Shown: positions 15,740 through 26,421 of the stretch, in pieces
How positions within the stretch are numbered: position 1 is the stretch's first letter
Layout: each line of letters opens with the position of its first letter
Origin: Tenericutes bacterium HGW-Tenericutes-2
Lineage (GTDB): Bacteria; Bacillota_I; Bacilli_A; Acholeplasmatales; Acholeplasmataceae
Direction: 5' to 3'
DNA: 50,974 nucleotides
Assembly (NCBI GenBank): GCA_002839095.1
Contig: PGXL01000013.1
Coordinates: 1 to 50,974, forward strand
Notes under the pieces: generated by a model
Seen by the model: only the letters and a program-made list of their open reading frames with translations
The model's database searches: none
Told to the model about the DNA's origin: nothing
Translations under genes and position numbers: made by a program

Positions 15740-16363
15740 TCATACATCAAAAAAATTAAAGACTTTAGTTAAACTATAATTTTGCTCTTGAAGATTTTTT
15801 AACATTTTATTATTATTTATGTAACTGGAAATCAAAATTCCATCATGAACATAATCAATAATCTGATTTCGATTAATGATCATTTTATTATTCAATGCAT
15901 TTCCTTGCTTATTAGGATCATCATCAATTATAGCAAGAACATTAATCTTAGAGTTAACTCTAGTTTCTATAGAATGTAGAAGTATTTGTGCTACTTCTCC
16001 AGCACCATATAATAGTATATTTTGAAATTTCTTGTTTTCAATTTGAACAAGAAAACTCTCAATATTTTCTTTTGCAGAATTGTATAAATGTTGTGATGCA
16101 TTTAAATATCCAATATTTAGAACCTTTCTTCTTTCAGTCCCCTTCTTAGTGACAAAATACTCTACTGTTTTCGTAGAGTGTTTTTTTCTTTTAACTAATC
16201 CTTTATTTTCATACTCACTAATGTGATCATTTATCATTGAGACTGCTATCCCTATAGCTTTGCTCATTTCTCTTTGAGTAATATTAGGATTTTTTTCAAT
16301 CATGTCTAATATCATATACTCTTTGTATAATACAGTTGGTTTAAAGAATTGATTATCACTCAA
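15740..16363 (-). CDS. Winged-helix regulator fused to Rossmann-like sensor domain
   Basis: This 207-residue protein joins an N-terminal winged helix-turn-helix (about 12-75; NPNITQREMSKAIGI is the recognition region and ENKGLVKRKKHS the wing) to a C-terminal nucleotide-binding-like domain (about 110-205). That domain has ILLYGAGEVAQILL and VLAIIDDDPNKQGN, as in the N-terminal part of sugar-nucleotide dehydratases and PglD. It is the first gene of the capsule operon and may sense a sugar nucleotide to control it; that role is inference. The start is TTG at 16363, preceded by GGTGA at good spacing. Confidence 0.82.
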   Translation of the reverse strand: MSDNQFFKPTVLYKEYMILDMIEKNPNITQREMSKAIGIAVSMINDHISEYENKGLVKRKKHSTKTVEYFVTKKGTERRKVLNIGYLNASQHLYNSAKENIESFLVQIENKKFQNILLYGAGEVAQILLHSIETRVNSKINVLAIIDDDPNKQGNALNNKMIINRNQIIDYVHDGILISSYINNNKMLKNLQEQNYSLTKVFNFFDV

Positions 16364-16402
16364 GTTTATTCACCATCCATTGTTCGATTATTGAATAATT
16401 TT

Positions 16403-16431
16403 ATTCTACATCATTTATATATCAATTACAA
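16403..16431 (-). promoter_or_regulatory. Promoter of the polysaccharide operon
   Basis: On the minus strand TTGTAA (16426-16431) and TAGAAT (16403-16408) are separated by 17 bases. The expected start of transcription is near 16396, giving a leader of about 33 bases before TTG 16363. It is the only good promoter upstream of the first operon gene. Confidence 0.6.
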
Positions 16432-16502
16432 GGCAAATCACGTAATTTGTTTGTAAAACGAACATACTTTTTATATTACCAGTTCAAAATGCACTATTTT
16501 CA

Positions 16503-16524
16503 AAAAAACGGGCTTCCGTTTTTT
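16503..16524 (-). terminator. Rho-independent terminator after the integrase operon
   Basis: A perfect nine-base stem AAAAAACGG/CCGTTTTTT closes a GCTT-type loop and has A and T runs on both sides, so it can work on either strand. It lies downstream of the minus-strand DUF4373 gene and upstream of the capsule promoter, which would insulate the two operons. Confidence 0.65.
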
Positions 16525-16911
16525 GTTTGCCCTCCCGTACGGTACCCAAGCTTGTGCTTCTTATTCGAATGGGGGGGGGGTTAAAATAAATAAAATCATA
16601 GAACTTTTCTAGAGTGAATTATTCTATAATTTCTTCTGATAATGCAAATTCTTCATAACCTCTCAAAAAATTATTAAGCTTATAAATAGATCGTCAACTA
16701 GTAAGTATTAATATTTTCCTATCTAGATTAACTGAAATTGTTTACCAGTTGAACTTTTTCAGACTTCGATTTATATCTAATGATACAGAAATTGATCTCA
16801 TAGATTCCATAGACTTTTTAACATTCTATTCAAGACTATGCATAAACTATCATTATCGCTGCAACCACTTACACTCTCTATACATTCACTCACACTCACA
16901 ATGATTAGTAT
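16525..16911. other. Intergenic region with poly-G tract and gene scar
   Basis: This gap holds a GC-rich patch (16528-16555) containing CGTACG and GGTACC palindromes, then ten consecutive G (16571-16580). On the minus strand near 16618-16692 there is a stretch of about 24 codons ending in a stop, with RGYEEFALSEEIIE at its end. It reads like the tail of a truncated gene, but I could not identify it. No intact gene, tRNA or rRNA is recognised. Confidence 0.5.
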
Positions 16912-17718
16912 TTATAACATTCTTTTACTGTCGAGTTCTTCCATAATCTCTTTGACTGATCTATTATCTATTGGTCTCGTCGTTATCATTTGTAGGTTCT
17001 TTTTAATCGCTGCTTCAAAGTAGCGATATTTGTCATCCACTTCGGTTATAAGTTTTTTATAATACTTTGCTAAGTACCTGGTCGCTTCTTGAACAAGACG
17101 ATACCCATACTCATCTATCAACCTTTCAAAGAGCTCATTAAACTTATAGATATCTACTGAATGACTACTGATATATTCTTCTTCAATGATAGCTATTGTT
17201 AAGTGATGTTTCTGCGGTGCTTTCTCTTCGATATCAACCATTCTTTGTTCCTTGCGCTGCTGTTTCTTTGTTAGCTTGGGTTCATTACCCTCTTTAGGTT
17301 TATCATCTCGTACAAGCTCTTTAACGATGGAATCGATTAACCAATAAGGATAATCTTCTGCTTGCTTCCGTTTCTTTGCAGCTATTTCAAACATCTCTTG
17401 AATCTCTATCGAAGTGAAGACATGTTCTTCATAAAGCTTCTGATCAAAGAGATCGATTGAAACCATATAATTTATCATTTCTTGAAGCTTATCTTTTCCA
17501 CTAATGAATTTAGCAGGAATGTATTTTAATACTAAATATGCTGCAGTTGTTAGATCATAATTCACAAAATAGCCTTTTGAATAGATATGCGAGAGTAGGA
17601 CCATATAGGTCATGTAACCTAATGGTCCATACTTATGCACAAGATTTGAGATTCTTGGTTCCGTAAAGTGATCGACATCAACACTAAAGAACTCGATGCC
17701 TTTAATCTTTGCTGGCAT
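16912..17718 (-). CDS. DUF4373-type (Lin1244/Lin1753-like) replication-associated protein
   Basis: This 268-residue protein begins with the DUF4373 pattern: EFFSVDVDHFTEPRISNLVH followed by KYGPLGYMTYMVLLSHIYSKGY (about 9-50). This N-terminal domain occurs in phage and integrative-element proteins that resemble replication initiators and bind DNA through a winged helix. A charged linker (about 130-170) leads to a second helical region. It is the last gene of the XRE-integrase-excisionase operon, one base after the excisionase-like gene. Function in replication is inferred from family context. Confidence 0.8.
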   Translation of the reverse strand: MPAKIKGIEFFSVDVDHFTEPRISNLVHKYGPLGYMTYMVLLSHIYSKGYFVNYDLTTAAYLVLKYIPAKFISGKDKLQEMINYMVSIDLFDQKLYEEHVFTSIEIQEMFEIAAKKRKQAEDYPYWLIDSIVKELVRDDKPKEGNEPKLTKKQQRKEQRMVDIEEKAPQKHHLTIAIIEEEYISSHSVDIYKFNELFERLIDEYGYRLVQEATRYLAKYYKKLITEVDDKYRYFEAAIKKNLQMITTRPIDNRSVKEIMEELDSKRML

Positions 17719-17719
17719 C

Positions 17720-17893
17720 TTAACCTACTCGCTTTTCTAGGACTTGAATATAGTTCTTGATCTGTTGCTCTGTGAAACGCCATTTATTACCTAGCTTAAT
17801 TCCTTTTAAATGACCTTCACTTAAGTGCTTATATACGGTTCTAGGTCTAATCTTTAAAAAGTTTGCAATGTCTTCTAGCGTGTAAAATCTCAT
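17720..17893 (-). CDS. Excisionase-like helix-turn-helix protein
   Basis: This small MerR/excisionase-type DNA-binding protein contains YTLEDIANFLKIRPRTVYKH and KLGNKWRFTEQQI, the helix-turn-helix and wing of the HTH_17 family. The preferred start is ATG 17893, giving 57 residues. An in-frame ATG at 17914 would add seven non-conserved residues and overlap the integrase stop by four bases. Position between a tyrosine integrase and a replication-type gene suggests it directs excision of the element or activates the downstream gene. Confidence 0.85.
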   Translation of the reverse strand: MRFYTLEDIANFLKIRPRTVYKHLSEGHLKGIKLGNKWRFTEQQIKNYIQVLEKRVG

Positions 17894-17910
17894 TGAATGA
17901 TCTTCTAATA

Positions 17911-18882
17911 TCATATGTTGTTCTTCTCCTCTTTATTGGTTTCAAATAATTGATTGGTAATGCGCTCTACAGTATCATCTTTAAGTCTATTTAAATGATG
18001 TGCATAGATTAATGTGGTTTCGATGTTTGCATGCCTTAGAAGCTGTTGTGTCGCTTCTAATGTATTACCACTTTTAAGTGATAAGGTTGCACAGGTATGT
18101 CTTAAGGAATGCACAGAGATTCTTCTATTGCTACCAAGGCAGTCATCAATGAGTTTTTTCATGGAGTGTCTGACAGTATCGACTTTTATGGGTTCTAAAT
18201 TAATTGAAAAGTTATGTGACACAAACAAATATTTATTATCATCTGCTCTCCAATATAAATAATCCTTAATTGCTTGATGAACAGGAACGGATAGCTTAAC
18301 AAAGTTGTCTTTCCCATCTTTACCTTTACCTTGAATATATAAGACTTTAAAATCATTGATCGTATCAATATCAGATATCTTAGCTCTAGCAATTTCAATC
18401 GTTCTAAGTCCTGTAGTCAGCATTAAGAGTAATATTGCATAATTTCTAAAGTCTGAAAGTGATATCACATCAGATACAACCGGTTTACTATAACTCATCA
18501 GCATCTTTGCTTGTTCTAAACTTAATGCTTCTTTACGATATCTCTTTTCTATCTTCGCTCCCTTAATTCCTTCAGCAACATCCTTCTTATAAACATCTTC
18601 TTCGAATCCATAACCTAGTCCGTTATGGATTCTGATCCACTTATAGAAGTTCTTAAGAACAACCATTTGTTTTTGAATCGTTGTTGCTTGTAATCCATCC
18701 TTCCACATCGAATCACGATACCCAATGATATCTGAACGTTTGGCATAACGGATATTATGTCTTTTCAGATAGTTAATATAACGGTCTATTAAAAGACCAT
18801 AATCTTTAATACTCTTATGCTTCAAATCCAGATTCTCTAAGTAAGTATCTTTGATTTCTTCAAGTGGATGGTATTTAATCAT
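17911..18882 (-). CDS. Tyrosine recombinase/integrase
   Basis: This 323-residue phage-integrase family protein has an N-terminal SAM-like core-binding domain (about 8-95) and a C-terminal catalytic domain. Catalytic residues are all present: R160 in TTGLRTIEIAR, a lysine in the beta-hairpin near 187, H258 and R261 in HSLRHTC, H284 in LLRHANIETT, and nucleophile Y293 in IYAHH. It overlaps the upstream XRE gene by eight bases. It probably catalysed integration of the element. Its cognate attachment site was not found. Confidence 0.93.
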   Translation of the reverse strand: MIKYHPLEEIKDTYLENLDLKHKSIKDYGLLIDRYINYLKRHNIRYAKRSDIIGYRDSMWKDGLQATTIQKQMVVLKNFYKWIRIHNGLGYGFEEDVYKKDVAEGIKGAKIEKRYRKEALSLEQAKMLMSYSKPVVSDVISLSDFRNYAILLLMLTTGLRTIEIARAKISDIDTINDFKVLYIQGKGKDGKDNFVKLSVPVHQAIKDYLYWRADDNKYLFVSHNFSINLEPIKVDTVRHSMKKLIDDCLGSNRRISVHSLRHTCATLSLKSGNTLEATQQLLRHANIETTLIYAHHLNRLKDDTVERITNQLFETNKEEKNNI

Positions 18883-19117
18883 TTAATCTAATCTTTCCCT
18901 TCTTTAATAAGTATTGGTATTCATACCTATAGAGATCTTCTAATGTAATTCCATAAGCTCTAGCTAGTCTTGCCATCATCATAAAGGATGCTTGATCTCC
19001 TTGATGACCATTTTCAATATTTAGGATGTAGTTATAGCTCACTTCACTTAAGCTTGCCATTTCTTCAAGACTTAAATCTCTGGATTCTCTTAAAGTCTTT
19101 AAATAGATTCTTTTCAT
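18875..19117 (-). CDS. XRE-family transcriptional regulator
   Basis: This 80-residue Cro/CI-type DNA-binding protein is one helix-turn-helix domain: LKTLRESRDLSLEEMASLSE then SYNYILNIENGHQG, followed by MMARLARAYGITLEDLYRY. It is the first gene of the minus-strand integrase operon and overlaps the integrase by eight bases, so it probably autoregulates the operon from the 19118-19844 control region. Its ribosome site is weak; only GG-containing sequence lies about 12 bases upstream of ATG. Confidence 0.88.
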   Translation of the reverse strand: MKRIYLKTLRESRDLSLEEMASLSEVSYNYILNIENGHQGDQASFMMMARLARAYGITLEDLYRYEYQYLLKKGKIRLND

Positions 19118-19844
19118 GGTGCATATACCAAGCGCGCACGCGCCTTTATCAAATTTATCAATTTATCTTTTTTTCTTTCCTTTCTCTATAACTATCCTTT
19201 AGTCATTTAATACAAACAATCGTTTATAAAATCTTGATTTCATGAAATGCAAAAAAGTTGATTCTCATCAACTAGCTTTCAAGTATATAGGACTTTTCTA
19301 TGCCATCTCAAACCTATCGTTATCTATATCTAGACATAGATAAACACATTTTCGAACACGGTATTTAAGACGTCATTCATAGACAAGACCTTATTGTTTT
19401 GGTGAAGAACAAGGGCGGTAGAAGACATCTGTACTGTTTTTAAAATGGATAAGTAGGTAATAGGGATTCTCCTCTACTCTACTAACTAGCCAATGAATTT
19501 GTTGGCCTACTCCAATTCTATCATTTAAGGTTATGTGCCTTATTTTTACTTAAAATATCGTATAAAATGACAAAAAATTAGAAAAACAAGTTCAAAAAAT
19601 ACCTTCATAATTAGCCATATTTACAATCAAATTTTGCAATTCATTCAACTTGACACATACTTGACACTATGTTGATGATGTTTTATTTCCGAATAACTAT
19701 CAAATCCACGAAAACTCTAAAAATTATGGAATATATTGTAATAAATTATGCTTTGAGCATGATTGACAAATTGAAATGTATAAGAAATTCCCTTCGCGTG
19801 ATACAATACTCTCTGACTGATAAAATAAGTAAAGGAACTTCACC
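19118..19844. promoter_or_regulatory. Divergent control region between the two recombinase modules
   Basis: This 727-base gap separates the minus integrase operon from the plus serine-recombinase operon, each headed by a regulator. It contains a Z-DNA-like alternating tract GCGCGCACGCGC (19132-19143), a 47-codon open frame with one internal stop (19300-19443), and a short inverted repeat GCCAA/TTGGC near 19488-19505. It also has two direct copies of ACTTGACAC (19648-19656 and 19659-19667). An extended -10, TGATACAAT (19799-19807), is the likely promoter for the plus operon. Confidence 0.5.
19300..19443 (+). pseudogene. Small open frame with one in-frame TAA
   Basis: From ATG 19300 the frame reads 47 codons, broken once by TAA at 19366-19368. 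The first half reads MPSQTYRYLYLDIDKHIFEH and the second half contains RQDLIVLVKNKGGRRHLYCF. Both halves look like real protein sequence. An AGGA site lies six to seven bases before ATG. It may be a small mobile-element gene killed by one base change. I do not recognise a named family. Confidence 0.4.
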
Positions 19845-20522
19845 ATGCAAACCGATAAAAGATTTATTCCACTTGGAAAGAAATTAAGAGATCGTCTAAA
19901 CCTATCTAGAGAAGACGTAATTGAGGAATTATTAAAATATGGTACAGAGATCAGTACCTACACATTAAGAAATTATGAAACAGGTACTCAAGATATGCCA
20001 CTTACGATCATGCATCATCTATGCCATATCTATGATTGCACCATCAATCAATTTCTAGCAGAACGTAATCAACAAGATGATCGTTTTAAGAAAGCTGACT
20101 ATGTAACTTATGATTTAACAAAGAATTACAAGCTTACCGTCAATAAGCATCAAGAAAAAGCATATGACATCAAATCGAATATCAAAGATGATCAAGAGAT
20201 CTACGCACATGCGATATTAGGTTATGATTGCCCAAATACCTTATTACCTGAAGGATCAAGACTGATCTATCAAGCAAGTGATAAATATCAGATTAAACTA
20301 AAACAAACGTATGATTACTATATTATCTCAAAGACAGAAGTTATCAACGGCAAATCATACGAAAAAACATACGTAACCAAAGCCAAAGAAATCGAGGATT
20401 CAACAAGACCTAAACTTGTTCAATTCTTCTTTGATGGTAAAGTGGAACATATCTCATCCACTGCATTTCTTAAAATGGTTGAAGGTTTAGTTGTTAAAAT
20501 CATCATTGATATTAAAAAGTAA
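19845..20522 (+). CDS. XRE-type regulator with C-terminal ligand/oligomer domain
   Basis: This 225-residue protein has an N-terminal helix-turn-helix (about 8-75: GKKLRDRLNLSREDVIEELL, then TLRNYETGTQDMPLTIM). The C-terminal domain (about 95-225) resembles in outline the S24-type beta domain of phage repressors: YDCPNTLLPEGSRLIYQ corresponds to the region before the catalytic serine. I see no convincing Ser-Lys dyad, so self-cleavage is doubtful. AAGGAA lies before the start. It heads the serine recombinase operon and probably represses it. Confidence 0.8.
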   Translation: MQTDKRFIPLGKKLRDRLNLSREDVIEELLKYGTEISTYTLRNYETGTQDMPLTIMHHLCHIYDCTINQFLAERNQQDDRFKKADYVTYDLTKNYKLTVNKHQEKAYDIKSNIKDDQEIYAHAILGYDCPNTLLPEGSRLIYQASDKYQIKLKQTYDYYIISKTEVINGKSYEKTYVTKAKEIEDSTRPKLVQFFFDGKVEHISSTAFLKMVEGLVVKIIIDIKK

Positions 20523-20748
20523 TGAAAATGCATAAATACCCACAACTGTTGGTTGTAAGCGAATATTAAATTCGTTATACTGATAGCGGTGAAGACAAGA
20601 AGGTGGACAAGACACTCTTAATTGAGGGGATTGTTCATTTTCTTTTTTTATTTATCCCCTTAACCCTTAAAGAGTACCACATTGACTTGCTAATACTTCT
20701 ATTACTAGTTAACATGTGTACTAAGAAAACTAACTGGAGGTCTTCACC
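20523..20748. promoter_or_regulatory. Leader of the serine recombinase genes with inverted repeats
   Basis: The gap has two adjacent small hairpins near 20541-20575 (ACAAC/GTTGT and CGAAT/ATTCG). A larger inverted repeat follows, GGGGAT (20626-20631) and ATCCCC (20654-20659), around a T-rich loop. The recombinase start has GGAGG and the same CTTCACCATG context as the upstream regulator gene. The large repeat could be an RNA hairpin or a recombinase site. Confidence 0.4.
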
Positions 20749-22446
20749 ATGAAACAAACCGTTGAAATCATTCAACCCAAACCAAAGTATAAAGATATCT
20801 TCACCAATCAAGTGATTCGAAAGAAAAGAGTCGCAGCCTATGCCAGAGTCTCAACCGATGAGACAGACCAGTTAAACAGTTATCAAGCACAAATTGAAGA
20901 GTTCACAAGAAGGATTAATACAAATCTCGAATGGGAATTTGCAGGCATGTTCTGTGATGAAGGCATCACAGGAACTAACATGCTTAAACGCCCTGGATTC
21001 ATGAAAATGATTGATGCTGCTAAAGGTGGTCATATTGATTTAATCTTAACAAAGTCAATCTCTCGCTTCTCTCGTAATACAGTCGATATCCTAACCACCA
21101 TTAAAGAACTCAGATCCGTTGGTGTTGAAATCTTCTTCGAAAAAGAAAACATCACATCAGTGGACCCAAAGATCGACTTTGTCTTAACGATTATGTCATC
21201 GATGGCTCAAGAGGAATCACGCTCCATATCAGAGAATACCAAATGGGGTATTCAAAAGAGATTCCAGCAAGGTAAGCTTATCATGTGTACCAGAAACTTC
21301 TTGGGCTATGACATGAATGAACTTGGTGACTTAATCATTAATAAAGAACAAGCAGAAACGGTTAAATACATCTTTAAATGTTATATCAATGGCATGTCAA
21401 CTTCAAAACTTACCAACCACCTAAAAGAGATGCAAATCAAGAATGGTCGAGGGGTTGTCAATTGGTTTCCAGATACCGTTAAAGAGATTTTAATCAATGA
21501 GAAATATGTTGGTGACCTTCTTCTACAAAAGACGGTCACGGTCGATTATTTAAGCCATGAGAGTAAAATCAACGATGGCTACGCAACCAAGTATTATATC
21601 AAGAATGCGCATGAAGCAATCATCGAACGTGAAGTGTATGACATCGTTCAAACGATGATGCATGCAAGACATTTAATTGTCTCTGTAGACTCCAAAGAAC
21701 GATTTAAACACTTAGCTCAAAAGCCAATGAAAGGTTTAGTTTATTGTGGCCAGTGCAAACGCATGTTTAACTCAAAGATGCACAACTCAGGAACAACATT
21801 CAAAAAGAGTATGCTGAAGTGTCATACATCAAGGAATAACCCAATGGCGTGTGATAATCACTCCATTCATGAACCACTCCTAGAACGCGCAACACTTCAT
21901 GTTGTTGAGACGATGACGAAAACTAAAGATATGCAAGATAGCATTTTATTCTATATGGAACAAACCCTTAAAAAGAATAATTCACATGAACAACTTCAGA
22001 GCTTAAAACTAGATCGTGTTGATCTAGGAAATAAACTGAAAGCACATGTGAATAACCGAATACACAGTTCATTATCTGATAGTGATTATAAGAAAGAATA
22101 TCAACGCTTAGAAATCGAGTATAACAGCATTACAAAGCATATTGAAGCATTGACTCAAGACATCACCAAAGAACACTTAATGAGACGCAGATTCTACGCA
22201 TTAAAGAGCTTTATCGATACCAACTACCAGGATACAAGCATCATTAAGAGCTTCTTTGGTATCGTTTTAATGATGGGACAAAATCACGTGAGATATGTGA
22301 TTGATGATACCTTCATTACGATTGATGAATTGCATGAACAGATGGACAATTTAAAAGCACTCCCTATCTTAATGAAGGGAACTTACTATGATTTAAATAC
22401 AAGAGAAAATATATACTACGAGGTGGTTATTTATGAAAGAAATTAA
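20749..22446 (+). CDS. Large serine recombinase with zinc ribbon
   Basis: This 565-residue site-specific recombinase has the resolvase catalytic domain (about 24-165) with YARVST, placing nucleophile Ser35, and ISRFSRNTVDIL carrying the conserved arginines. The recombinase domain spans about 195-300. A zinc ribbon (about 332-375) has CGQC and later cysteines. A coiled coil and C-terminal domain follow. It could excise or integrate the element. It overlaps the next recombinase gene by 14 bases, so the two are made together and may form a heteromeric pair. Confidence 0.93.
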   Translation: MKQTVEIIQPKPKYKDIFTNQVIRKKRVAAYARVSTDETDQLNSYQAQIEEFTRRINTNLEWEFAGMFCDEGITGTNMLKRPGFMKMIDAAKGGHIDLILTKSISRFSRNTVDILTTIKELRSVGVEIFFEKENITSVDPKIDFVLTIMSSMAQEESRSISENTKWGIQKRFQQGKLIMCTRNFLGYDMNELGDLIINKEQAETVKYIFKCYINGMSTSKLTNHLKEMQIKNGRGVVNWFPDTVKEILINEKYVGDLLLQKTVTVDYLSHESKINDGYATKYYIKNAHEAIIEREVYDIVQTMMHARHLIVSVDSKERFKHLAQKPMKGLVYCGQCKRMFNSKMHNSGTTFKKSMLKCHTSRNNPMACDNHSIHEPLLERATLHVVETMTKTKDMQDSILFYMEQTLKKNNSHEQLQSLKLDRVDLGNKLKAHVNNRIHSSLSDSDYKKEYQRLEIEYNSITKHIEALTQDITKEHLMRRRFYALKSFIDTNYQDTSIIKSFFGIVLMMGQNHVRYVIDDTFITIDELHEQMDNLKALPILMKGTYYDLNTRENIYYEVVIYERN

Positions 22447-24070
22447 AATCATTGAATCCAATAAAACAAAACAAGCAAGTAAAGGCAAAAAAAGGGTTGC
22501 TGCATATGCTAGAGTATCCACTAAACAAGAACTTCAGGAATCATCTTTAGATATCCAAATTGCACATTATGTTAAAGAGATAATATTTAATATAGACTAT
22601 GCATTTGCTGGGATCTATTATGATCATGGTAAATCAGGTACTTCGATGAAGAAGCGTGATGGACTGCAAACATTACTTAAGAAGATAGACGAAGGTAGAA
22701 TTGATCTTGTCTTAGTTAAATCCTTATCTAGGTTTGCTAGAAACACCATAGATGCATTAAATGTCATTCAAGACACTAGAAAAAAAGGTGTTGAGTTCTA
22801 TTTTGAAAAAGAAAACATTTCAAGCCTAGATACTACTATTGATATGATACTGACGATGATGGCTGGTATGGCTGAAGCTGAATCACAATCGATGTCTCAA
22901 AACATCTCATGGGGTCATCAGAAAAGAGCTGAGAAAGGTGTAGTTCCTCTTAGACCAGTCTTTGGTTATGATATTACCAAAGATAGACAAATGATTATTA
23001 ACTCATTAGAAACTGAAGTTATCCAAGTTATCTTTGATATGACCATAAAAGAGTATCCAATGAAAAAGATTGTTGAATACGTTAAAAGTCTAGATGTGAA
23101 GACTAAACAAGGTAGACCTATCAATAAATATACTCAAATTAAAAACATGCTTACAGATATTAGATATACAGGACAAATCATACGAGGAAAGACTTATACA
23201 AAAATAGAAGGCTTAGAAAAGACTAGAGCCATCAATGATGGCGATAGACCACTTTACGTGATTAAGAACCATCATCCTGAAATCATTGATTTAGCAAAGT
23301 TTGATAAAGTTCAAGAAATATTAAGTCAATCTAAACAGGCTTACATCAAAAGACCATCTAGAACCATAGACTTAAAAAACTTCATCTTCTCGCTAAACCA
23401 TGAAGCATATCTTTATCGTAAACAGATCGATGTAGATAATAGTGACTACGATTTACTTGAGAATGAATACCAACGAAAAAGCGATTCTCCAAGGCTTTAT
23501 ATGAAGACTGCTAAACACGTTCTTAAAAGAGCAATGAACTCGTTAGGACGCAATTTTAGCGACTTGGAAGCCAAGTACGACAAACAAGTGAAACTACTTC
23601 TTAAAGAATATGATCTCGAACTAGAATTAATCACATTGGCTAACCTGGTAGCTGGTTATAAGCAAGAGTATTATAAGATCAAAGAAAAGAAAATTCTGGA
23701 TTCTTCTGATACAGCATTGATGTTTCAACTTGAAGATGTGATTACAAAATTCAGTGTTGAGTATGTACAATTAGAAGATAAGTATTTTGAGAATAGGGAA
23801 ATGTATAAATATCCTGAGATGCTAAAAAAGTTGATTTCATCTTACGATTATCCAATTCAGGAGATTGATCCTGATATGGTTAAAAGCATATTCAGTAATC
23901 TTGTTATCGTAGATCCAGAAAACTATGTGTTCATCATTAATGTTACTAATAAAAAGTTAACGATGGACGATATGAAAAAAGCAGCGACTATGAAGCCGTT
24001 GCTTGAAAGCAAATGTGTTTCTATGAATAAAAACATTGAAACAGTTAATTATAAGATTGTGTTATTTTGA
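22433..24070 (+). CDS. Large serine recombinase lacking a zinc ribbon
   Basis: This second large serine recombinase has 545 residues. AAYARVST places nucleophile Ser29, and LVKSLSRFARNTIDAL and the E-helix region AGMAEAESQSMSQNISWG are intact. The recombinase domain (about 185-290) is present. Where the partner has paired cysteines, this protein has none (IDLKNFIFSLNHEAYLYRK). That suggests it cannot make the usual zinc-dependent DNA contacts and may need its partner. Codon start overlaps the upstream gene by 14 bases. Its 3-prime end overlaps the convergent SEC-C gene by nine bases. Confidence 0.92.
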   Translation: MKEIKIIESNKTKQASKGKKRVAAYARVSTKQELQESSLDIQIAHYVKEIIFNIDYAFAGIYYDHGKSGTSMKKRDGLQTLLKKIDEGRIDLVLVKSLSRFARNTIDALNVIQDTRKKGVEFYFEKENISSLDTTIDMILTMMAGMAEAESQSMSQNISWGHQKRAEKGVVPLRPVFGYDITKDRQMIINSLETEVIQVIFDMTIKEYPMKKIVEYVKSLDVKTKQGRPINKYTQIKNMLTDIRYTGQIIRGKTYTKIEGLEKTRAINDGDRPLYVIKNHHPEIIDLAKFDKVQEILSQSKQAYIKRPSRTIDLKNFIFSLNHEAYLYRKQIDVDNSDYDLLENEYQRKSDSPRLYMKTAKHVLKRAMNSLGRNFSDLEAKYDKQVKLLLKEYDLELELITLANLVAGYKQEYYKIKEKKILDSSDTALMFQLEDVITKFSVEYVQLEDKYFENREMYKYPEMLKKLISSYDYPIQEIDPDMVKSIFSNLVIVDPENYVFIINVTNKKLTMDDMKKAATMKPLLESKCVSMNKNIETVNYKIVLF

Positions 24071-24904
24071 GCCTTCAAGTTTGTCAATTATACTCATGAA
24101 ATAATCTCGAAATTCTTTCTCAAAAGCATTATGTCTTTCCCATATTTTTTGAATTTCATTCGCTATAGGTTGAGATAAAGTTCTATTAAATCTTTTGACA
24201 AACAATGGTTTAAGACAACAGTCTTTGAATGGCTTGTTTGATCCGCACATGCATACACCATTTAAATTTAAAAAATCTATTTTATTCTCAGGTGGAATTA
24301 CATCACTTGCTGGAGCAATCCATGGTGAATGATATTTGATAATTTTTAAAAAGACCCAAATGGCGTGTTTTAACAGCCATATTGTTGATTGTTGAACAGT
24401 ATAGACAACTTTCTCATCCATAGATTTATGTTTAAAGAATTCATAGTCACCCGTATAACAAATTGTTGTTGGTATCAGGTTTGAACTGTACCCGTTGATA
24501 TGAGGATGGTCAGGATATGAATCGAAATTTATATAAGGGTTAATGACAAATACCAAAGGTTGCCCATTAAGTACATTTTGTCCTGTTTTCATATCTAAGT
24601 ACGGGGCTTTAATCATTAGAGTATACTCTTGATTGAAAAATTCTTCTGGGGCTTCCATAAGTATTTTCTTAAGTTCGCGATTTACATGGTGTGATGGGTT
24701 ACCACACTCATCATAATGTTCAACCTTACAGTTAGGTGTGATGTGTACTTTTTTTTCTAGCATTAAATCACTTACTACTTTAATTAATTCTTCTTTTATA
24801 GGAATTGGATTTACCTTTACATAATACCAAGTTCCAGTATATTCTTTTGTGAACTCACTATTCACACGTTTAACATTGTAAAACTCGCTCTTAACATTGC
24901 TCAT
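24062..24904 (-). CDS. E2-like (ubiquitin-conjugating fold) protein with SEC-C zinc motif
   Basis: This 280-residue protein has no certain named family. Near its C terminus CMCGSNKPFKDCCL (218-231) is a textbook SEC-C metal-binding motif with Cys218, 220, 229 and 230. The middle (about 93-200) has features of bacterial E2-like proteins: beta strands ending in YPDHPHING (130-138), a candidate catalytic Cys149 in TTICYTGD, then a helix TVQQSTIWLLKHAIWVF and KYHSPW. This matches in outline the iCLy...tv.W..WL.hyE.W pattern of E2 proteins in short type II CBASS. No E1, CD-NTase or JAB gene is adjacent. GGGTGA precedes the start. It follows the 42-residue peptide gene and is probably accessory cargo. 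Confidence 0.55.
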   Translation of the reverse strand: MSNVKSEFYNVKRVNSEFTKEYTGTWYYVKVNPIPIKEELIKVVSDLMLEKKVHITPNCKVEHYDECGNPSHHVNRELKKILMEAPEEFFNQEYTLMIKAPYLDMKTGQNVLNGQPLVFVINPYINFDSYPDHPHINGYSSNLIPTTICYTGDYEFFKHKSMDEKVVYTVQQSTIWLLKHAIWVFLKIIKYHSPWIAPASDVIPPENKIDFLNLNGVCMCGSNKPFKDCCLKPLFVKRFNRTLSQPIANEIQKIWERHNAFEKEFRDYFMSIIDKLEGSK

Positions 24905-24915
24905 TTTAAATCACC

Positions 24916-25044
24916 CTACGGTAGTAAGGCATGCGGTCTAGCAGGTGTTACTGGCACCTGTTTTTCTGGCCGCTTGTCACTATCGTTACCTTTATCAGGT
25001 TTAGGGTCTGTGCCTGGTATGTGCTTAGACTTTTCATCCTTCAT
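24916..25044 (-). CDS. 42-residue Lys/Pro-rich peptide
   Basis: This small gene runs from ATG 25044 to TAG 24916 and has an excellent GAGGTGA site six bases upstream. The product is hydrophilic and probably disordered: KHIPGTDPKPDKGNDSD in the first half and VPVTPARPHALLP at the C terminus. It lies 11 bases before the E2-like gene, clearly in the same transcript. No family is recognised. It could be a substrate, modifier or small partner of the E2-like protein; that is a guess from position. Confidence 0.6.
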   Translation of the reverse strand: MKDEKSKHIPGTDPKPDKGNDSDKRPEKQVPVTPARPHALLP

Positions 25045-25265
25045 AGATAATCACCTCGAATAATGTGTAAAATGAGTTGTGTCTTTGCGAAAGTTTATGC
25101 TTGGTATTTACATTGAGCGAGTTTTTCAGAACAATGTTAATTTAATATAAATATTTATCCATGCAAACTTGGTATTAGTGTTCACTTTCTGACACACCTA
25201 TATTATACCATTCATGCTTATTTATAACCACAACAATTACCAAAACCCGATATAAAGGATATGTA
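25045..25265 (-). promoter_or_regulatory. Leader and promoter of the peptide/E2-like operon
   Basis: An extended -10 element TGGTATAAT lies on the minus strand, its TATAAT at 25202-25207. Transcription would start near 25195, giving an unusually long leader of about 150 bases. The leader holds two copies of ATACCAAG. No clear -35 is seen. The promoter lies about 60 bases from the divergent promoter at 25266. Confidence 0.5.
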
Positions 25266-25294
25266 TTGACAAATAAAGTAAAATTTGATAAAGT
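25266..25294 (+). promoter_or_regulatory. Strong promoter for a short plus-strand RNA, with tandem repeats
   Basis: TTGACA (25266-25271) and TAAAGT (25289-25294) are spaced by exactly 17 bases. Two perfect 13-base direct repeats ATAAAGTAAAATT (25273-25285 and 25288-25300) cover the -10 region with a 15-base period, like an operator. Confidence 0.6.
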
Positions 25295-25300
25295 AAAATT

Positions 25301-25370
25301 GCTTTCATTTATGGAAGGCTTAGACAGTAAAATGAGAAAAGTCCAGCTGGTAACTGGACTTTTATTTTTT
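25301..25370 (+). ncRNA. Candidate small RNA of about 70 nt
   Basis: The unit runs from the promoter at 25266-25294 to a terminator with a perfect ten-base stem AAAAGTCCAG/CTGGACTTTT (25337-25363) and a T-rich tail. An ATG at 25311 opens a 22-codon frame that runs through the terminator, but no ribosome site precedes it. I therefore favour a non-coding RNA. It is divergent from the peptide/E2-like operon and convergent with the 143-residue gene. Function is unknown. Confidence 0.45.
25337..25370 (+). terminator. Rho-independent terminator
   Basis: A ten-base perfect stem closes a seven-base loop and is followed on the plus strand by TTATTTTTTT-like sequence. On the minus strand the tail is weaker, but it could also end the convergent gene at 25467. 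Confidence 0.75.
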
Positions 25371-25466
25371 TCAAAGTGAATATAACGAATTTTTGCGAAT
25401 CAATCAGGTACTTATCAAATCTACTTTTACCTACCACTTGTAGTTTTCAAGTTTCAACCTAGTCGT

Positions 25467-25898
25467 CTATTTGTAACGATTTAACTTATTGATCCACTGA
25501 ATAAACTCTTTTTTTGAATTTGATCCGAACACTTGAGTTTTGAAGTCATTTAATCTGTCAAATACCGAGTAACGACATTCATTTGCTCTATTATCTATTT
25601 GAATAACTAACAATGTTGAATCTGAATTAATGTCAGTAATTCTAAAATCATCATAAAGTGGTCCATCAAGAGGACAGTTGTTCTTAAACCATACATAACT
25701 ACTCTCAAGATCTACTTTACCACCTGGTTTGATCTGTTTAATAATGTTACCCATTCTTTTTGTCTTATTTGCTAAACTACTATCTTTACAAAACCAATCA
25801 TACCATCCAGCTTCAATCTGCGTTTGTACATCACTAGATTCGTATATGCCGTCATTGAATCGTTCGACCCATTCTCTTATGCTTATTTCCTTTCTCAT
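25467..25898 (-). CDS. Hypothetical protein, 143 residues
   Basis: I do not recognise a named domain. The soluble protein begins with REWVERFNDGIYESSDVQTQ and has a striking aromatic AGWYDWFCKDSSLANKT stretch (about 30-46) and YVWFKNNCPLDGPLYDDFRI (about 69-88). These look like strongly conserved segments of a small family found in mobile DNA. A GGAAGGTGA-type site precedes ATG 25898. It lies about 420 bases upstream of the peptide/E2-like operon on the same strand, with the small-RNA unit between them. No membrane segment or signal peptide is present. Confidence 0.75.
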   Translation of the reverse strand: MRKEISIREWVERFNDGIYESSDVQTQIEAGWYDWFCKDSSLANKTKRMGNIIKQIKPGGKVDLESSYVWFKNNCPLDGPLYDDFRITDINSDSTLLVIQIDNRANECRYSVFDRLNDFKTQVFGSNSKKEFIQWINKLNRYK

Positions 25899-26164
25899 GC
25901 TTAAATCACCTTCCTTTGTATATATCTTTGGTATGTATATATATCACTCAAAAGCCGATATTAATCAAGTGAAATCCTTCATTCTCGTGAACTCATTCTT
26001 TTATCGGAAATAACTTGTAATGATTATGTAGTGAGTTGACATACTTTTTACAAAATCTCATTTTTTTGAAAACCTCATATAGGCTTCATGGTGCTGTGAA
26101 GTTAACAAGTTGTTATGTAAAATAAAACACTAAATGGACAAAACAGTTCAAAACGATAAAAAAA

Positions 26165-26183
26165 GATAGGATTTTGTCCTATC
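26165..26183 (-). terminator. Rho-independent terminator
   Basis: GATAGGA (26165-26171) pairs with TCCTATC (26177-26183) over a five-base loop. On the minus strand the stem is followed by seven T. It could end long transcripts of the galactose operon, whose last gene stops about 490 bases upstream. Confidence 0.6.
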
Positions 26184-26235
26184 AAGGTTAATTCTTCAAT
26201 TTAGGGTGTAACAGATGTTAACTCACTGTATTCAC

Positions 26236-26372
26236 ATGCCAAATCATCGACAGTTCTAGTATAGAGGTGGCGGTGACCTTGTATATGGAAACATATTAGC
26301 ATATCGACGAAAGTGATATGTTTTCTTAGGTAAGAGAATAAGTAACTATAAAAAGTTCAAGAAAAAACACAA
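26236..26372 (+). repeat. Degenerate dispersed repeat, copy 2
   Basis: Ungapped similarity to copy 1 (1-142, opposite orientation) extends for about 125 bases. The plus-strand translation contains YRGGGDLVYGNILAYRRK and ISNYKKFKKK, which match YIKGQGNLV, LNILTYQK and ISDYEKSIKK of copy 1. Stops interrupt both. Both copies look like decayed pieces of one coding element of unknown type. Confidence 0.55.
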
Positions 26373-26421
26373 CTTTTTTATTCAATGTTAACTCATGAAT
26401 GATATTCAGCACTCTTATGTC

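Follow-up and report, generated by a model that had tools for sequence, protein, structure and literature searches.

The DNA analyzed here (the window) comprises positions 1 to 50,974 of contig PGXL01000013.1 from Tenericutes bacterium HGW-Tenericutes-2, and it is part of a 2.3-Mb genome that is 99.9% complete. The relatives of this genome include Tenericutes bacterium MO-XQ (CP017948) and a RIFOXYA12 Tenericutes MAG. As listed in Table 1, it was found that a gene for a 280-residue E2-like protein and a gene for a 42-residue peptide lie side by side on the minus strand, convergent with a large serine recombinase gene. An earlier note, made from the sequence alone, had pointed out HPHING (residues 133-138), Cys149, a tryptophan-rich helix, and CxCGSxxxxKxCC (residues 218-230) in the larger protein, as well as the peptide gene 11 bases upstream with its strong ribosome site, and all of these are present at the positions in the table. 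The gap between the two genes is 11 nt, and the ribosome site of the E2 gene (GGTGAT) overlaps the stop codon of the peptide gene. As the earlier note had also stated, no E1-like, JAB, cyclase or signal-synthase gene adjoins the E2 gene.

Table 1. Features of the peptide-E2 locus and its surroundings, in window coordinates.
Feature	Position	Strand	Basis or remark
Large serine recombinase, tandem with the next, of the same element	20749..22446	+	PF00239/PF07508/PF13408
Large serine recombinase that converges on the E2 gene and overlaps it by 9 bp	22433..24070	+	PF00239/PF07508; syntenic in L003, L004 and L006
E2/UBC-like protein with C-terminal SEC-C motif, 280 aa	24062..24904	-	ORF, homologues, UBC/UEV fold matches, SEC-C
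SEC-C motif CMCGSNKPFKDCC, residues 218-230, predicted zinc site	24215..24253	-	Pfam PF02810
Trp-rich helix WLLKHAIW, residues 176-183	24356..24379	-	W176, L177, H180 and W183 invariant
Cys149, predicted catalytic cysteine	24458..24460	-	Invariant; paired with the CBASS E2 Cys in hhalign
HPHxN motif, residues 133-137, at the probable position of the E2 HPN motif	24494..24508	-	Invariant in 7/7 homologues
Peptide of disordered type, 42 aa, constant upstream partner of the E2 gene	24916..25044	-	Orthologue directly upstream at homologous loci with intact upstream sequence
PHA, residues 37-39 of the peptide ([SP]-H-[AS] C-terminal motif), followed by LLP	24928..24936	-	7/7 peptides
DPKPDKGND motif, residues 13-21 of the peptide	24982..25008	-	Counterparts DPRPDKGND in Aneurinibacillus and DPQPNHGKD in Ammoniphilus; compared with shuffles
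Ribosome site GAGGTGA of the peptide gene	25051..25057	-	Sequence
Uncharacterized neighbor, 143 aa, optional cargo	25467..25898	-	Kept in G012 and MO-XQ; not at this place in G013

Is this E2-like protein found in other bacteria? Searches of whole genomes and collections revealed a family that is rare yet widely scattered. The identity to the window protein is 98% in genome G012, 42% in G013 and 38% in MO-XQ, and 25-28% in Halanaerobium kushneri, Ammoniphilus sp. YIM 78166, Aneurinibacillus sp., and a Clostridiales MAG. No close relatives were found in phages, plasmids or IMG/VR. Most of the weak genome matches (E 1e-4 to 1e-6) were SEC-C cross-hits, often in frames of SecA length, and they were rejected as members because the SEC-C region alone was covered. 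Truncated or interrupted copies of the E2-like gene at L049 (G673) and L068 (G822) were also left out as members; they hint that other Bacillota have gained and lost this gene. In G012, the E2 gene (L002/L006, contigs C37 and C47) is split across two contig ends with about 35 bases absent near SEC-C, which is either an assembly break or an insertion.

In the alignment of seven homologues, HPHxN, Cys149, W176, H180, W183, W195 and the SEC-C cysteines 218, 220 and 229 are invariant down to 25-26% identity. CBASS E2s keep PHxY, to which the HPHxN of this family may correspond. The Trp of the Trp-rich helix and its W/F/Y partner are also seen in CBASS E2s. The SEC-C motif (C-x-C-x8-[CH]-[CH], a zinc motif, PF02810) is present in five of the seven members with a best E of 5.8e-5, and the window copy scores 19.2 bits (E 0.0011), just below the cut-off of 20.4. 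Searches of Pfam, PADLOC and NCBIfam with the window protein returned SEC-C and weak E2 matches and nothing more, and no paper joining SEC-C with CBASS or E2-like proteins was found in the literature collection searched. A second Cys/His cluster, H63-x3-C67-x4-H72, lies at 24689-24718 of the window. With the spacing H-x(3-4)-C-x(3-4)-H, this cluster recurs in six of the seven homologues, and it is a possible extra metal site.

AlphaFold2 models were built with the seven sequences (pTM 0.82 for the window protein and 0.79 for the Ammoniphilus protein). Foldseek gave no significant match for either model (best E 0.2-1.4). When the structures were realigned with VIA-align, both models matched UBC/UEV/RWD-type domains, and the top 50 rows for the window model were all UBC/UEV-type domains with Z up to 4.8. 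The Ammoniphilus model is matched best by 8yjy_B, which is the E2 in the CdnG-E2 complex of Serratia marcescens (Z 7.4; 17% identity and 3.3 A over 130 residues), and next below it is the TSG101 UEV at Z 6.0, with UBC structures also listed; a Z below 8 is weak taken alone, and the sequence evidence agrees with the UBC fold. Against a profile of 12 CBASS-type E2s, hhalign placed Cys149 on the catalytic Cys, which is C101 of the Serratia E2 as counted in the alignment (E 1.3e-4, with a probability of only 53%). With the PADLOC CBASS E2 model PDLC00876, a match to the core of the Aneurinibacillus protein was obtained (E 7e-4). The E2 model PDLC00865 had no match in 149 Bacillota genomes, but its controls were equally silent, and this search is thus uninformative. 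A 150-residue protein at locus L050 links the two families, with E-values of 2.2e-8 to the profile of the E2-like family and 8.5e-9 to the CBASS E2 profile PDLC00872.

On the basis of sequence and models, the 280-residue protein is judged to be an E2/UBC homologue with Cys149 at the predicted catalytic position, and its closest relative is the single E2 of E2-only type II CBASS, not Bil. The labels of the earlier note, E2-like and SEC-C, were correct, and the UBC fold and the conserved Cys149 that it had supposed were both recovered. Its reading of the pair as a possible compact conjugation or defense cargo is supported in part.

The partner gene was then compared among the loci. An ORF of 42-53 residues, each with a good ribosome site, lies directly upstream of the E2 gene in every homologue with an intact upstream region, and the constant linkage that the earlier note had considered is therefore real. 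The gap is 9-11 nt in the Tenericutes and 1 nt in the Clostridiales MAG, while the two genes overlap by 4 nt in Ammoniphilus, 20 nt in Halanaerobium and 23 nt in Aneurinibacillus. Among the 43 codons, the window differs from G013 by 15 synonymous and 12 non-synonymous changes and from MO-XQ by 11 and 15, respectively, and a further comparison within the Tenericutes gave 14 of each. The two kinds of change are thus about equally frequent within the Tenericutes, which marks the peptide as being under purifying selection. Across greater distances, the observed similarity score was reached by 2 of 2000 shuffles for window-Aneurinibacillus and by none for G013-Aneurinibacillus and Ammoniphilus-Aneurinibacillus. 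The Halanaerobium peptide had no significant similarity to the Tenericutes peptides in the shuffle test; the peptides are low-complexity, so that the most distant pairs (for example, window-Halanaerobium) are not significant alone. By these sequence comparisons, the 42-residue peptide gene is a real gene.

Two motifs recur in the peptides. DPxPDxGxD lies in the N-terminal half of most of them, but it is missing in Halanaerobium and partial in the Clostridiales MAG. The other motif, [SP]-H-[AS], is found in all seven peptides and leaves 3-4 residues up to the C-terminus (10 in Aneurinibacillus), an occurrence that is expected for each peptide in 0.06-4% of shuffles. Its third position is Ser in three of the seven, and the 3-10 residues that follow it are variable with no conservation. 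The earlier note had described the peptide as ending in Pro, which is true of the window and G012, while the last residue is N, E, R or V elsewhere; GGE or GGQ endings do not occur. Because 81-90% of the residues are polar, charged, Gly or Pro and there is no cysteine, the peptide is regarded as disordered-type.

I searched the host genomes for the usual partners of E2 proteins. For the ThiF/E1 family, only chance matches of 35-48 residues were obtained in the window genome (99.9% complete), G013, and G060 (MO-XQ, complete at 100%), while the same search matched in 12 of 14 control genomes. The JAB family had no match in these three genomes, and a SMODS cyclase (PF18144) was found in none of the seven host genomes. 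As these searches were empty, the Tenericutes have an E2 homologue with no detectable E1, isopeptidase or SMODS cyclase, though a distant E1-like protein may lie under the profile threshold in these hosts. ThiF proteins do occur elsewhere in the genomes of the four hosts outside the Tenericutes. No CBASS effector (phospholipase, SAVED and the like) was seen among the ORFs read around the pair.

What is the nearest known system? The plasmid relatives of the Serratia E2 (L101 and L103-L113, including L105 of Priestia) were taken as the E2-only CBASS comparison set. In these plasmid operons, the CD-NTase gene lies directly upstream of the E2 gene and often overlaps it. All 12 readable CD-NTase tails end with [FYWH]G plus 1-4 residues, as in FYGD, FYGM, FWGN, FYGQ, FFGR, KFHGTEQS and DFHGGRV, which suggests that the cyclase tail may be trimmed to the Gly before conjugation. 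A C-terminal Gly or Ala serves for the conjugation of CBASS cyclases (PMC10097602), and PMC11153139 cites an E2-only system in which cyclase is conjugated to cyclase.

The present pair and the Serratia marcescens CdnG-E2 (PDB 8yjy/8hsb/9kkb) share a homologous single E2 with the catalytic Cys at an equal position, no E1 in the operon, and a partner gene directly upstream with a coupled start. In both, a conserved motif with a small residue lies near the C-terminus of the partner and leaves a few variable residues behind it, and both are found on mobile elements. They differ in that the partner here is a disordered peptide of 42-53 residues instead of a CD-NTase, the motif is [SP]H[AS] instead of F[FYWH]G, the E2 has an N-terminal extension and SEC-C, and neither a SMODS cyclase in the host genome nor a CBASS effector beside the pair was seen. 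The single E2 in the Serratia study (Yan et al.) reportedly both processes the cyclase tail and forms the thioester by itself.

Other systems are more remote. Cap2/Cap3 type II CBASS has E2-type Cys chemistry acting on a non-beta-grasp partner via a C-terminal Gly or Ala (PMC10097602), as is predicted here, but the present pair lacks an E1 domain, a JAB protease, and a SMODS cyclase in the genome. Bil (BilABCD) also has a bacterial E2-like protein, whereas the beta-grasp Ubl (BilA), the JAB (BilC) and the E1 (BilD) have no counterpart here, and the C-E-H-H motif of BilB (PMC11354881) is unlike the E2-like protein of this study. The peptide is too short and polar to be a beta-grasp Ubl. It resembles Pup/UBact as a small, disordered, lysine-containing candidate tag, but its C-terminus is not GGE or GGQ, and the enzyme beside it is UBC-type, not PafA-type. 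Thus, without a cyclase the pair is not CBASS, without E1, JAB and Ubl it is not Bil, and with the wrong terminus it is not Pup.

Since the geometry equals that of E2-only CBASS with a small peptide in place of the cyclase, a corresponding mechanism can be proposed. I put at about even the chance that we see here a minimal ubiquitin-like conjugation module, with an E2 homologue that would work without an E1 and a co-translated disordered peptide that would serve as its partner and tag. By analogy, the best reading is that the peptide takes the cyclase's place as the E2 partner, which would give an E1-free and cyclase-free mini-conjugation module on mobile elements. The attack by Cys149 would fall close to the C-terminal end of the peptide, either at [SP]-H-[AS] or directly behind it; the variable last 3-10 residues would be released, and a thioester would be formed. 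Lysines of the E2 itself, of further copies of the peptide, or of target proteins may then receive the peptide, while the SEC-C zinc motif may hold the peptide or the target. Several points speak against the tag reading: Foldseek alone is not significant, the hhalign probability is 53%, and the tail after the motif is not conserved. The Ser at the proposed site in three of the seven peptides also counts against it because a C-terminal Ser abolished conjugation in the E. coli CBASS (PMC10097602). The low complexity of the peptides, the ThiF proteins of the four hosts outside the Tenericutes, and a possible remote E1-like protein under the profile threshold weigh in the same direction.

That Ser and the variable residues after the motif would be easier to understand if the peptide were a non-covalent partner (an inhibitor, a chaperone, or an antitoxin-like regulator) of an active E2-like enzyme acting on another host or invader protein. 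A small, hydrophilic, charged protein encoded just upstream with coupled translation is typical of a regulator. However, such regulators usually keep a hydrophobic binding helix, while the peptides are only 10-19% hydrophobic; the short C-terminal motif and a free tail are conserved as in a substrate; and the equivalent gene in E2-only CBASS encodes the conjugated cyclase. I regard a non-covalent role as rather unlikely.

A less probable explanation is that a CBASS E2, now decayed or diverged, lost its cyclase, that the peptide is an isolated cyclase tail, and that the module works with a partner or cyclase encoded elsewhere. The nearest structural relative is indeed a CBASS E2, and [ST]-H is likewise found close to the end of CD-NTase tails, namely those of Fibrella and Runella (SHSFYGE and THLFYGD). 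On the other hand, all seven host genomes lack a SMODS cyclase, and the peptides have no F-[FYWH]-G core. The pair has stayed intact over very distant bacteria with invariant catalytic residues, which points to a function of its own rather than decay.

It is equally doubtful that, whatever its chemistry, the pair serves the mobile element itself by regulating excision or the adjoining recombinases, and not defense. The earlier note had placed the pair next to recombinases; the convergent large serine recombinase is conserved in the Tenericutes, where it is always the second of two in tandem. A syntenic block of about 10 kb (window 15960-26376) is common to the window, G012, G013 and MO-XQ. It holds a tyrosine-recombinase-like gene and the two serine recombinases, which are CcrA/CcrB-like by NCBIfam at scores far under the cut-off. 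No obvious terminal repeat was seen in the block, and a comparison of 15.7-17.0 kb with 25.9-26.8 kb gave no simple attachment-site repeat, as the longest word in common has 12 bases. The 143-residue neighbor is about 62% identical in MO-XQ (L004 232-666) and matches no family in Pfam, PADLOC or NCBIfam. Outside the Tenericutes, the neighbors are different, and therefore no single recombinase type is linked to the pair. From the reading of ORFs, the Ammoniphilus pair lies within a conjugative element. In Halanaerobium kushneri, the pair is followed at a distance of about 2 kb by a DRT class I-B defense system (L018 10980-14298; PADLOC E 1e-169 for the ATPase-Toprim and 2e-92 for the RT). In the Clostridiales MAG (L021 6235-8744), genes for an XRE-IrrE protein (PADLOC RmrA-like, 1.2e-34) and a short PIN-like protein are directly upstream of the pair.

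The L021 arrangement resembles that of L050 (1492-3256, equal to L100 7189-9442; G716), where genes for an XRE-ImmA/IrrE protein, a PIN-like protein ending with Ala-Ala, and the 150-residue E2-like protein with SEC-C adjoin each other. Neither a cyclase nor a small peptide is encoded between the genes of this trio, and the PIN-like protein is perhaps another type of E2 partner.

In summary, defense-type neighbors were found at two of the seven loci, and recombinases or conjugation genes adjoin most loci. This is the setting of defense or accessory cargo; it is suggestive and not proof. The pair is likely a mobile-element cargo for defense or for the control of competing elements, and I infer both its conjugation chemistry and its defense phenotype. 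It is very improbable that the E2-like protein is instead a protease or ligase maturing the small peptide into a released signal or toxin in a RiPP-like manner: a precursor-like small gene does lie beside a single Cys enzyme, and processing near the C-terminus is predicted, but no transporter, immunity gene or leader/core organization was seen beside the pair, the peptides are variable and very polar, and E2 homology predicts transfer to lysine.

As far as I know, bacterial systems of the ubiquitin-like type depend on an activating enzyme, or they include a cyclase or a beta-grasp modifier. I would tentatively, and with somewhat less assurance than for the module itself, go further and propose a new class of modifier: a disordered tag of about 45 residues that would be taken by one UBC-type E2 from a peptide bond near the tag C-terminus and attached to proteins with no E1, carried as cargo in the wall-less Tenericutes and scattered Bacillota. 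The two genes, in genomes with no detectable E1, would form a smaller conjugation system than any other I know of, small enough for full reconstitution in the test tube. With such a pair, one could test directly whether a peptide bond in the substrate can be the energy source of an E2 enzyme. If true, the enzyme of E2-only CBASS would be one branch of a wider family with interchangeable partners (a cyclase, a small peptide, and perhaps a PIN nuclease), and E2-only conjugation would be a general device, not a peculiarity of CBASS.
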